From: Pseudomonas fluorescens
GTDB lineage: Bacteria > Pseudomonadota > Gammaproteobacteria > Pseudomonadales > Pseudomonadaceae
NCBI RefSeq assembly: GCF_001708445.1
Contig: NZ_CP015637.1
Location: forward strand, 6,511,001-6,575,000
DNA: 64,000 bases
Reading direction: 5' to 3'
Position numbers and translations under genes: made by a program. Every line of letters starts with the position of its first letter. Position 1 is the first letter of the stretch. This document shows, piece after piece, positions 37,473-40,852 of the stretch. Under the pieces are notes generated by a model. The model was not told the origin of the DNA. It searched no databases and was given only the letters and a program-made list of their open reading frames with translations.

Positions 37473-38615
37473 TCAGGCGGTGGGATCATTGCGTTTGAAG
37501 GTGACGAAGACGCCGTCAGGGCGATAAGTCAGCGTAGGGACCAGGGTCTTCAAGTTGCTGGTGATGCCGGCGAACGGGCTTTCGACGTGCTTGGCGCTGA
37601 GGAGCTGCAAGGGTTGCGAGAGCAGCGCATCGTTTTCGTTTTCGACGTGGATAGCCAGCGTCGCCCCGCGCAGGTCGGCGGTGTTGCCAATGTTCGAGGG
37701 GGTATGGGTTTGGTCTGCGCCCAGCGTCAGGGCCAGCGTCGAGCCATGTTGCATGCGCAGGTCCTGCTCGACGTGGGTGGCTGGATCCAGCCGCAATGTT
37801 CCCGCGACCTCAAGGTTGGCCACGGTGCCGCCGGCGTAGGTGGCGTCAGGTTGGACGGTCATGGAACCGCCGATTTTGCTCTGGTTGACCAGGGTTGCAC
37901 CGCTGTAGACCGCACCTTGCTGATTGACCGGGACTTCACCTGTGAGGGTCCAGTTGCCAGAGCCCACCCACAGATGCTGCATCTGGCGGGCACCATCGAA
38001 TGTGCCGCCCCTGGCATCGTCCAGAATTACCTGGTTGGTGCCACTGCCCCCGTCAACCACGCCTTCGAAGCGCCCACCGCTGCGGACGATGAGCATATCG
38101 TTGCCGCCCCCCATGCTCAGCGCTACGCCATGGTTGCCAATGATCAAGCCGGCGTTGACCACTTCATCATCCTGGTCGCCGTCCAGCCTTACCCCGGCGC
38201 CATTCTTGCCGGTGATGCTGCCGTGGTTTTCGAGCCACACCGGTGCCAGGCCGGTGCTGGTGAAGCCGTTGCGCTCGCCAACGGTTTTGGCCGTCGCGCT
38301 GTTGATAATCTCGATGCCGCGCAACGAGGTTGCAGTGCCGGCTGGAGCACTAGGGATAAGCAGCCTGGCGGCGTTGTCGATGTCCAGGCCATTGCCATTG
38401 TTGAGTGTGATGGTTGCCGAGCTGAACCGGGCGTCGGGCTTGATCGCAGGTTGATCGTTGAGCGCAGCGGCGATGTCTGTGCGGCCGGCCGGCTTGTCCT
38501 GGCGGGTACCTGCGGCGGTGCCAGGCGGCGTCTGCGATATGGATTGCGCCAGTGTGTGTATGCCATACCCCATCAGGGCACCGACGGAAGGGATGTACGG
38601 GAAGATCGACGACAT
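37473..38615 (-). CDS. Autotransporter passenger-like beta-helix protein without barrel
   Basis: The product has 380 residues. After a hydrophobic N-terminus (about 4-27, IFPYIPSVGALMGYGIHTLAQ), which is only a weak signal peptide, the protein is made of short Gly/Asn/Asp-rich strands. Examples are NNGNGLDIDNAARLLI, ENHGSITGKNGAGVRLDG, MGGGNDMLIVRSGGRFEG, VDGGSGTNQVILDDA and VANLEVAGTLRLDP, typical of pertactin-like beta-helix passengers. It ends at TLTYRPDGVFVTFKRNDPTA, which is where the linker and beta-barrel normally begin in an autotransporter. The barrel instead lies in the gene just upstream (38725-40026), 109 bases away, so the pair may be a split autotransporter. Surface exposure is inferred. 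Confidence 0.7.
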   Translation of the reverse strand: MSSIFPYIPSVGALMGYGIHTLAQSISQTPPGTAAGTRQDKPAGRTDIAAALNDQPAIKPDARFSSATITLNNGNGLDIDNAARLLIPSAPAGTATSLRGIEIINSATAKTVGERNGFTSTGLAPVWLENHGSITGKNGAGVRLDGDQDDEVVNAGLIIGNHGVALSMGGGNDMLIVRSGGRFEGVVDGGSGTNQVILDDARGGTFDGARQMQHLWVGSGNWTLTGEVPVNQQGAVYSGATLVNQSKIGGSMTVQPDATYAGGTVANLEVAGTLRLDPATHVEQDLRMQHGSTLALTLGADQTHTPSNIGNTADLRGATLAIHVENENDALLSQPLQLLSAKHVESPFAGITSNLKTLVPTLTYRPDGVFVTFKRNDPTA

Positions 38616-38724
38616 AATTTCCGGCCTCGCAAGTGTAGGAGACCGGAATGTAGCCAGTAACGTAGCCGGCGGCTGTCAGGCCTGATAACAACGCTATGAG
38701 GGAATGTTCCTCGGTTTCATGAGG

Positions 38725-40026
38725 TTAAAACCTCATTTGCCATTGCCCCATCAGGCCCTGGCTGTGGCTGTTGGTGCCCGCTTCCCCCTGGTAGGCCAGG
38801 CCGACGGTGTGTTGCGGCGACAGCGCGAGGTCCAGCCCGGCCTGCCAGTTCAGGCTGTTGCGGTCCAGGGAAGCGCCGACCAGGGTGAAGTCGTCAATCG
38901 CGAACGGCATGTAGCGGTAGGACTGGCGGACGCGGCTGTCGACCTTGCCATAGAGGCGTTTCCAATCGGCGCTGATATGGGGGATGAGCCTGACCTGGTT
39001 ATCGAACCGATACTGGCTCGCCAGGCGCAGGCCCAGGGTGCTGTTCAGGTTTTGCTGGGTTTGTGAGCCAACGATCAGTGCCGCCAGGCCACCTTTTTCC
39101 TGGAACCGGTCGCGGTGATAGCGTTGATAACCAAGGCCGCCGAAGGGCTCGATACTCAAGTCCGCGCTGCCCAACTGATAGCCCACTTCCGAGAACAGGG
39201 TTTGGCTCTGGGCTTTGTAGTCGCCCTTGAGTTGCTGTTTGTTATCGAGCAACTGGACGCTGCGTTTGTTCTGCCCGGCGTGGCGGCTATAGATCGCCCC
39301 CAGGCGCAGGCCCAGCGGGCCGTCCTGGTGCACGGCATAACCGCCCAGGTGCCAACTGTCCAGGTCGGCGGAAAAACGCTGGGCGTCGAGGCGGCTGGTG
39401 GATTTTGCGCCCATTACGCCGATCCGCCAGGCGTGGTCCAGTGCCCAGTCGGCGCCTGTCAGCAGGCCTCGGTTGGCGTACTTCAGGCCCGCACTGCCGC
39501 CTTGTTTGTCGAGGCGGCCGTCTTGGCCCAGTCCCTGTACCCAGACATGAGCGTCGTCATTGGTGGGCAGGGCGCGCAGGGTCGACAGCAATTGGCTGCC
39601 CAGTTGCTGTGTGATGTTCTGGGTCGCCGCCGCCAGGTTGGCATTCTGGCTGCCGGCCAATTGTTCAAGGGCCGCACCGACCCCTCCGGGCTGCTGCATC
39701 AATGCCTCATTGAAGCGTTCCAACTCTTTGATCTGCTCTGAGGTCAGCTCGCCGGATTCCAGTAACCGAATCAAGGCAGGCTCCAGCACCTGGGCCACCC
39801 GTAGGCCATTGAGGGTCGTGGCTTGGCGAGTCAGGTAGCCGTCGAGGGGAGTGGCTTGCTCGATCGGGGCCGACATCCATTCGTCGTAATCGTCATAGTC
39901 GTCGTAGTCAGGCACAAGCAGTTCGAACTGATAAGGTGTGCCTGTTTGCGCCTGGGCGAGGGGAGCGCTGGCAATACCAATGGCGAGGATGACCGCACGC
40001 GTGAGTTTCTGGAGTGTAAAGGGCAT
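38725..40026 (-). CDS. Autotransporter beta-barrel domain protein without passenger
   Basis: The product has 433 residues, starting at ATG 40026 after AGGA. The signal peptide is 1-26 (ILAIGIASAPLAQAQ). An acidic Asp/Tyr repeat (DYDDYDDYDEW, 40-50) and a helical linker (about 65-150, LNGLRVAQVLEPALIRLLESG) come next. A barrel follows from about 155, with HVWVQGLGQDGRLDKQG, alternating aromatic strands and the terminal beta-signal GQWQMRF ending in Phe. This matches the translocator unit of type Va autotransporters in the outer membrane, but there is no passenger region between signal and linker. The passenger-like gene lies downstream on the same strand. Confidence 0.82.
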   Translation of the reverse strand: MPFTLQKLTRAVILAIGIASAPLAQAQTGTPYQFELLVPDYDDYDDYDEWMSAPIEQATPLDGYLTRQATTLNGLRVAQVLEPALIRLLESGELTSEQIKELERFNEALMQQPGGVGAALEQLAGSQNANLAAATQNITQQLGSQLLSTLRALPTNDDAHVWVQGLGQDGRLDKQGGSAGLKYANRGLLTGADWALDHAWRIGVMGAKSTSRLDAQRFSADLDSWHLGGYAVHQDGPLGLRLGAIYSRHAGQNKRSVQLLDNKQQLKGDYKAQSQTLFSEVGYQLGSADLSIEPFGGLGYQRYHRDRFQEKGGLAALIVGSQTQQNLNSTLGLRLASQYRFDNQVRLIPHISADWKRLYGKVDSRVRQSYRYMPFAIDDFTLVGASLDRNSLNWQAGLDLALSPQHTVGLAYQGEAGTNSHSQGLMGQWQMRF

Positions 40027-40188: not shown

Positions 40189-40327
40189 TGCATTTTAATG
40201 CAGCTAAGGGTCCAACTTTAGCGCTTTGATTGCATTATATTGCGCTTCGTCTGCTGCTACAGTCAGATTTATGCACTATGTTGCGTTTATCAGGCCGGTC
40301 AATTACCTCGAGGTGCATTTAGTTGCG
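40189..40327 (+). promoter_or_regulatory. Four phased 14-bp operator-like repeats before the HipN-HTH pair
   Basis: TGCA-N6-TGC(A/G) elements occur at 40189-40202 (TGCATTTTAATGCA), 40231-40244 (TGCATTATATTGCG), 40272-40285 (TGCACTATGTTGCG) and 40314-40327 (TGCATTTAGTTGCG). Start-to-start distances are 42, 41 and 42 bases, four helical turns, so all sites face the same side of the DNA. The last one abuts the ATG at 40329. The 296-base gap 40027-40322 is otherwise empty and unusually AT-rich. The likely ligand is the HipB-like protein encoded downstream. Confidence 0.8.
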
Positions 40328-40328
40328 T

Positions 40329-40574
40329 ATGGACAATGCCTACAGGCTTACCTTGCAGATATTCGATGCCGGTCATTGGCAGGATGCGATGACGCTAGAG
40401 TTTTCCGAGCCTGATAAAGGTTTTGCAAGCCCCTGCCGTTTTGGCTACGAGTCCACCTACCTGGTCGATCACCTGGACGAGATGGATACCCTTTTTGCCA
40501 AGGCGGTGAGTGTAAGGGTGCCATTGAACTGGTCACAGGAGACACCCAAGCACGCGCCGGCCTTTCTCCAATGA
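40329..40574 (+). CDS. Stand-alone HipA N-terminal domain (HipS-like)
   Basis: From ATG 40329 the product has 81 residues; TTG 40323 in frame is the alternative, and neither has a ribosome site, so translation may be leaderless or weak. The sequence DNAYRLTLQIFDAGHWQDAM, FGYESTYLVDHLDEMD and AVSVRVPLNW...APAFL matches the start of HipA-family toxins up to the N-terminal subdomain. There the protein stops, with no kinase domain in this frame or in the following sequence. In tripartite HipBST systems a separate HipS with this fold is the antitoxin to the kinase HipT. Here hipT is absent and the HTH gene overlaps the stop by 4 bases. Confidence 0.7.
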   Translation: MDNAYRLTLQIFDAGHWQDAMTLEFSEPDKGFASPCRFGYESTYLVDHLDEMDTLFAKAVSVRVPLNWSQETPKHAPAFLQ

Positions 40575-40852
40575 GTCTCTCGCTCAGTCAGCGTGCACAA
40601 GTGATTGAAAGCATCGAGCAGGGCTTGTCTGACGGTTCGCTCGAAATAGGCGACGCCGTACGCCGCCTGCGTACCGAAGTCACAGGCCTGCACCAGAGCC
40701 AGTTCGCGCAGATGTGCAAGATATCCGTGCGTACCCTGGTGCATATCGAGCATGGCGAAGGCAATCAAACCTTGAAATCGCTGAACGCCGTGTTCCGCCC
40801 CTTTGGTTTGCAGATGGGCGTGGTCAAGGTGCGTCGCAAAAGGGATGACTAG
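40571..40852 (+). CDS. HipB-like Xre-family repressor
   Basis: The product has 93 residues. A helix-turn-helix (about 38-85) contains LHQSQFAQMCKISVRTLVHIEHGEGNQTLKSLNAVFRPFG, the pattern of HipB-type antitoxin/repressors, preceded by a helical extension rich in Glu/Arg. ATG 40571 overlaps the HipA-N stop (ATGA), so the two are translated together, in the order HipA-N then HTH, the reverse of canonical hipBA. It probably binds the four repeats at 40189-40327. It ends 4 bases into the convergent permease gene. Confidence 0.78.
   Translation: MSLSLSQRAQVIESIEQGLSDGSLEIGDAVRRLRTEVTGLHQSQFAQMCKISVRTLVHIEHGEGNQTLKSLNAVFRPFGLQMGVVKVRRKRDD

Follow-up and report, generated by a model that had tools for sequence, protein, structure and literature searches.

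A truncated hipA, an orphan hipB and four phased operators in Pseudomonas fluorescens: probable remains of a reversed-order hipAB locus after in-frame loss of the kinase

What does a locus encode that holds only the start of hipA, a gene for a HipB-like repressor and, in front of both, four evenly spaced palindromes? Such a locus lies in the window of this study, the whole stretch of 64,000 nt of Pseudomonas fluorescens DNA that was analysed (NZ_CP015637.1, positions 6,511,001 to 6,575,000, forward strand). A first-pass annotation had read it as a kinase-free module, antitoxin-only or regulatory, with a stand-alone domain like HipS. The kinase-free, antitoxin-only and probably regulatory character of the locus is upheld by our results, but the HipS-like domain is not. 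We consider it likely that the locus is a reversed-order hipAB pair from which nearly all of the kinase gene has been deleted in frame, and that the orphan HipB left behind is predicted to repress its own operon. The features are as follows.

40189..40202: operator O1, TGCATTTTAATGCA, with corresponding sites in intact loci
40231..40244: operator O2, TGCATTATATTGCG, with corresponding sites in intact loci
40272..40285: operator O3, TGCACTATGTTGCG
40314..40327: operator O4, TGCATTTAGTTGCG, holding the probable TTG start (40323) of the hipA remnant
40323..40574, plus strand: hipA remnant ORF, 83 codons from the TTG (81 from the ATG at 40329)
40560..40571, plus strand: deletion junction, from comparison of the window with locus L115 (genome G211) at both breakpoints
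40571..40852, plus strand: hipB, HipB-like HTH repressor/antitoxin, 93 aa
40571..40574, plus strand: ATGA, where the stop of hipA overlaps the start of hipB

The small ORF alone had no match in Pfam, NCBIfam or PDB sequences. It was matched in 24 of 95 genomes searched, the window's own among them, and the best foreign match (71% identity over residues 1-80) forms the beginning of a 453-codon frame in genome G030. Because this long frame belongs to the HipA family, the ORF had been correctly named as the N-terminus of HipA; its description as the first domain of HipA holds only for the N-terminus, since the ORF is probably less than a complete domain. The four sites were said to end at the ATG of the gene. 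They do lie at the gene start, but translation probably begins at TTG 40323, inside O4, because the sister genome G211 reads ATT where the window has ATG, the Shine-Dalgarno energy is better for the TTG (-7.2 vs -3.3 for the ATG) and an 83-residue relative is present in the protein database. Behind the small ORF stands, as annotated, a HipB-like HTH gene with ATGA overlap, so that the order is HipA N-terminal part and then HTH. The HTH protein matches TIGR03070 (couple_hipB) with an E value of 1e-10, though its 41.4 bits fall short of the curated cut-off of 71.65, and is up to 94% identical to HipB encoded beside a full hipA (G211).

To place the locus among its relatives, we compiled 181 loci, namely the window, 80 named loci kept of 132 found and 100 regions drawn from 157 matching genomes among 398; removal of exact duplicates left 152 non-redundant loci. 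A single HipA match of at least 420 residues was present in 111 of these, 22 had a partial or broken match and 19 had none. The gene order in the relatives is a full hipA kinase followed by hipB, and in 107 of the 111 full-length loci an open frame of more than 400 codons ends in the ATGA overlap. One such kinase (locus L040) matches Pfam HipA_C with an E value of 1.4e-27. The predicted structure of a relative's kinase had a pTM of 0.82, and its top PDB fold matches are HipA entries, with Shewanella HipA (4pu5) at an E value of 6.6e-13; the only NCBIfam match of the Pseudomonas kinase is YjjJ (41.7 bits; cut-off 401). Reversed-order hipAB pairs, with the kinase gene first and the HTH antitoxin second, are described as subclades of clades VI and VII of the Hip tree (Gerdes et al. 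2021, PMC8262856). This order is also that of the relatives at the locus, whereas the window has the HipB-like HTH gene downstream with its overlap and palindromic operators in the promoter region (predicted sites, kept in intact relatives) but no HipA-family kinase gene.

In 142 of the 152 loci the fetched flank contains one or more of the genes that neighbour the locus in the window; the other 10 (9 full, 1 partial) have none. An OadA or autotransporter gene stands mostly to the left and an ABC permease/binding protein or GNAT gene to the right, with arrangements alike around full and kinase-less copies. Because neighbours are common to full and kinase-less loci, most copies are orthologous, with the kinase lost in place. 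In the window itself, positions 37473-40026 on the minus strand hold an autotransporter beta-domain gene (38725-40026, with a signal-like start) and then a 380-aa ORF without a Pfam match, which together are possibly a split autotransporter.

Close relatives with a full-length hipA at this site, which would speak for a deletion, were sought and do exist. One is the sister genome G211, whose kinase is full length and whose hipB joins that of the window with support of 100/94 in the hipB tree. Compared with G211, a net 363 codons are missing from the window, in frame, with a shared end of 2 bp at the junction, and in the remnant the HipA N-terminus runs in frame into the native final codons and stop. 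The proposal of a HipS-like stand-alone module therefore gives way to an in-frame deletion in a locus whose same-site relatives carry full-length hipA and hipB.

A functional role of the remnant as a stand-alone protein would take one of two forms, a HipS-like antitoxin or a co-repressor bridging HipB dimers on the phased operators. In E. coli it is HipA that forms the bridge between neighbouring HipB dimers. The locus resembles HipBST in having a short HipA N-terminal protein beside a HipB-like protein, but HipBST has the order hipB-hipS-hipT with a separate HipT, whereas in the window the remnant precedes hipB and HipT is absent. E. coli HipS is described as having four strands in residues 1-52, three HipT-facing helices in residues 53-94 and a fifth strand (PMC10627512). 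Our model of a relative's kinase has helices at 80-85, 89-102 and 109-116 and a strand at 125-127. If these are equated with the HipS elements, by layout rather than by superposition, the remnant would end, at position 82, before the HipS-equivalent helices and lack the last strand as well, in contrast to HipS, which is a complete domain. The remnant's own model is also of low confidence (pLDDT 73, pTM 0.60).

The remnant does have an open frame, and a similar N-terminal part is joined to the native stop in a second lineage, L062 (P. proteolytica), where HipA residues 7-96 run straight into it. The N-terminal dN/dS between the window and G211 is about 0.12, much of which may predate the deletion. 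Among the other kinase-less loci, by contrast, between 0 and 188 N-terminal residues are retained. Over all kinase-less loci the N-terminal leftovers end near residue 34, 41, 61, 82, 96, 102 or 188, and further loci hold only C-terminal parts of HipA or nothing; such variety speaks against the N-terminal domain being the part that is retained. A database search with the truncated protein, which detects only proteins of similar length with exact words in common, returned one cluster, the window's own, with 13 member sequences. With the leftover length varying between loci, the remnant stopping short of the helices and its own model weak, we set the HipS-like reading aside and regard any stand-alone function of the remnant as improbable.

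The second component of the locus is the operator array. The four TGCA-N6-TGC(A/G) sites start exactly where annotated, at 40189, 40231, 40272 and 40314, at intervals of 42, 41 and 42 bp. The bare 14-mer is not rare, with 15 matches in the window against 12.3 expected, which would allow the ladder and the small gene to be a product of chance or of assembly. The longest chain of 41-42 bp steps, however, had four members in the window and at most two in each of 400 random Markov-1 windows of the same dinucleotide make-up, and both array and gene are conserved across the genus, so we treat this explanation as refuted and give it next to no credence. Two further candidate elements were rejected: a sigma-70 promoter within the array (one minus-strand match, 0.6 expected by chance) and a terminator-like site at 40203-40222 (one found, 0.7 expected by chance).

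The 14-mer array was sought in other Pseudomonas and found genus-wide, with its spacing kept. At least three ladder sites occur in 98 of the 111 full-length loci, nearly all at steps of 41-42 bp. Since the ladder finder accepts steps of 40-43 bp only, we recounted neighbour distances without that limit over 84 full loci: 41 bp occurred 75 times and 42 bp 116 times, together 191 of 260 distances. The remainder comprised 28 distances of 10 bp, 22 of 31-32 bp and 19 others, and we read the 10 and 31-32 bp distances as an extra half-site within one step. In 49 of the 84 loci, the 315 bp upstream contain four sites with at most one mismatch, compared with 0.35 such sites per 315 bp inside hipA and 0.11 in shuffled upstream DNA. 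In 59 intact four-site loci the TGC cores are 95-100% conserved, except for the first T of O4 (83%), whereas the spacers are not conserved. O3 reads TGCACTATATTGCA, or the same ending in GCG, in 53 of these 59, its centre being nearly invariant too. The same-face operator array proposed from the window is thus strongly conserved in relatives in both sites and spacing, and, judged from its sequence, the operator ladder is real biology rather than chance.

The near-invariant TATATT core of O3 reads TATGTT in the window, a change that could be decay. TATATT is found in the window's O2 (40231-40244) instead of O3, which may reflect a promoter shift or decay.

E. coli HipB is reported to bind four operators cooperatively (PMC3920265), and the Pseudomonas locus would therefore represent autoregulation of a type already known, using a different operator sequence. 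The two systems share a HipA-fold kinase (in the Pseudomonas relatives), an HTH HipB and four operators. They differ in the operator, TATCC-N8-GGATA in E. coli hipBA and TGCA-N6-TGCA in Pseudomonas, and in gene order, which is opposite; the window in addition lacks the kinase. Among the matches listed in a search of open-licence PMC titles and the starts of abstracts, we found neither HipB operators of the TGCA type nor a kinase-less Pseudomonas hipAB.

Loss of the kinase is not confined to the window. A full-length kinase match is missing from 41 of the 152 non-redundant loci, although some single lesions, such as a frameshift in L072, could be sequencing errors. We built a hipB tree of 141 rows, from which 11 of the 152 loci were excluded because of a non-ATG start, a stop or a short sequence. 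Parsimony on this tree required 25 switches between the states with and without a kinase, of which 22 are forced by well-supported branches, from which we infer more than 20 kinase losses across the genus.

Several relics show how differently the gene has been shortened. In L149 (G300), hipA is a 17-codon in-frame relic of the first seven and last ten residues, some 50 bases ahead of hipB; its end still overlaps hipB at ATGA, and three mismatch-free operators lie upstream. In L210 (G036), an out-of-frame deletion 426 bases before hipB has made the HipA N-terminus and HipB one frame of 234 codons. The relic of L106 (P. brassicae) apparently misses several pieces, with its frame open to the native stop. 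L067, L158 and L161 share a mini-ORF, placed about 25 bases ahead of hipB, in which a new start precedes the last HipA residues and which overlaps hipB; the promoter of L067 is almost that of L158 and its hipB is very different, which suggests recombination.

We next asked what becomes of hipB and the operators once the kinase is gone. In kinase-less loci with at least two operators, hipB was intact in 32 of 32, whereas with fewer than two it was intact in three of nine (L128, L163 and L184) and broken in six (Fisher test, P = 1.9e-5). The same crude test scored hipB as broken in 4 of the 111 full loci, two probably through a misplaced start; because hipB starts were extrapolated from BLAST hits, some of the other broken scores may have the same cause. 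Loci lacking hipB are under-counted, because the 152 loci were picked by similarity to the hipB of the window.

These patterns bear on plain pseudogene decay, in which the toxin is lost first and hipB and the array are simply not yet gone. Since loss of the antitoxin before the toxin would be harmful, decay is expected to proceed toxin first. The broken hipB genes in kinase-less loci with fewer than two operators and the altered O3 core of the window agree with decay, as does a somewhat higher operator mismatch in partial-kinase loci (0.55 of 8 positions, against 0.36 in full loci). Where no kinase is left, however, the operators fit the consensus better than in full loci, with 0.10 mismatches of 8. 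In the kinase-less clade described below, none of 28 operator columns is variable, against 22 of 278 outside, too few to claim selection on the operators.

A further argument against decay comes from hipB itself. Five kinase-less genomes with a common operator region (L165, L166, L170, L172 and L173) differ in hipB by 0-9 synonymous and 0-2 nonsynonymous changes, with a dN/dS of 0.03-0.07 wherever nonsynonymous changes occur; in one pair, 2 of 10 changes are nonsynonymous (binomial P = 2.6e-4 on counted sites). Judged from these counts, the comparison shows purifying selection on hipB within this five-genome clade. For comparison, L148 and L163, which have no operator ladder and one of which lacks a start codon, gave a dN/dS of 0.475. 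Weighing both sides, we give plain decay a little less than an even chance.

The five genomes form, with L158 and L161, a kinase-less clade with support of 100/100 and a stem of length 0.23. Pairs of the five with L158 or L161 have a hipB dN/dS of 0.18-0.24. In this seven-locus clade, several hipB substitutions around and after the HTH precede the low dN/dS among the five, and its HipB is a candidate for changed function.

Constraint on hipB raises the alternative that the orphan is kept for a job independent of the kinase, either regulation of distant genes or neutralisation of incoming HipA (anti-addiction). Besides the selection in the five genomes sharing an operator region, the recurrent retention of hipB with its operators points this way, although sampling by hipB favours loci that retained it and hipB is broken in most loci that have fewer than two operators. 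We checked 21 kinase-less genomes; seven of them, including that of the window, have no HipA_C match at all, and three of these (G186, G409 and G235) belong to the seven-genome orphan clade. Thirteen others have at least one HipA_C match over the cut-off, where guarding against a resident HipA is possible, and one has a match below it; the match in G022 lies in a short frame, and one of the two in G250 is the remnant. In the window genome neither HipA_C nor couple_hipA was matched elsewhere, with control genomes positive. The earlier statement that no kinase is encoded is thus borne out, about 81 N-terminal codons being all that is left, and the window genome has no such kinase of its own from which HipB could rescue it.

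Nor did a regulon come into view. A second exact operator pair was sought in the window genome and not found, and we rejected a HipB operator regulon there. Regulation of the divergent autotransporter gene was also rejected, as the left neighbour is an autotransporter in some loci and OadA in others; because it is not constant, there is no obvious target for HipB. In 18 other genomes, operator pairs occur at nine places outside the hip locus, compared with none for a reversed control pattern. One of them (L218 1382-1437, G055), a TGCA-N6-TGC pair at 42 bp, lies directly before an HTH gene in a prophage-like region, and a pair in L219 (G021 contig 44) resembles it in sequence. On balance, we hold a kinase-independent role of HipB to be possible but rather doubtful.

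For the remnant, a more modest part than that of a protein suggests itself. In full loci, hipB has its Shine-Dalgarno sequence within the last hipA codons, with a median energy of -7.3 (range -9.1 to -3.3, n = 107). The energy is -1.7 in the window and +0.4 in L062, the only kinase-less loci measured that fall beyond the full-locus range on the weak side, and in both the frame stays open all the way from the hipA start codon to the native stop. Energies and open frames fit translation of hipB by reinitiation after the remnant in these two cases. Because the deletion took away the Shine-Dalgarno sequence of hipB, the remnant here is likely a relic serving to couple translation of hipB. Selection for in-frame lesions, and so for coupling, is not claimed: 8 of 18 lesions are in frame, no more than chance (one third expected, P = 0.22), in a count that omits 14 of the 32 operator-bearing kinase-less loci, which have no recognisable native start.

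Returning to the in-frame loss of the kinase from a reversed-order hipAB, which we prefer, the locus may work as follows. The deletion would have taken almost the whole HipA kinase and left the orphan HipB with its four operators. Each TGCA-N6-TGCA palindrome would be occupied by HipB dimers, all on the same face of the DNA at a spacing of four turns, and cooperative binding along that face would bring about repression, with bound HipB closing the promoter and the hipA start region. The 83-codon remnant would have no role as a protein; ribosomes finishing it at the ATGA would restart on hipB, whose own Shine-Dalgarno sequence is deleted. With the toxin gone, the locus would supply HipB in a self-limiting way and be kept either for a time or for a kinase-independent use.

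Orphan antitoxins are known elsewhere, and a survey of Klebsiella reports antitoxin groups of HipA toxins as unpaired (PMC7192599). As in those cases, the window keeps an antitoxin gene without a working toxin: its hipB is homologous to that of a complete pair and no functional toxin stands beside it. Unlike the Klebsiella orphans, the Pseudomonas locus retains its operator array and its address, and a single site has lost the kinase repeatedly across the genus. The decay of a HipA-type module can thus be seen at a single address, where full and kinase-less alleles stand side by side; the kinase goes by many different lesions, and HipB and the phased array tend to stay or go together. The broader idea that pseudomonads have repeatedly dropped HipA and kept HipB with its phased array, to act as an independent regulator or as a shield against kinases, is a tentative one, which we think unlikely as it stands. 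If it is true, a toxin-antitoxin module has been turned many times into a kinase-free genetic circuit, and in the seven-genome clade HipB had time to diverge and then came under selection. Orphan-antitoxin activity and the use by HipB, without HipA, of operators four helical turns apart become testable at this locus. It also carries a warning, that short genes annotated as a HipA N-terminal domain may be deletion remnants rather than HipS-like antitoxins.
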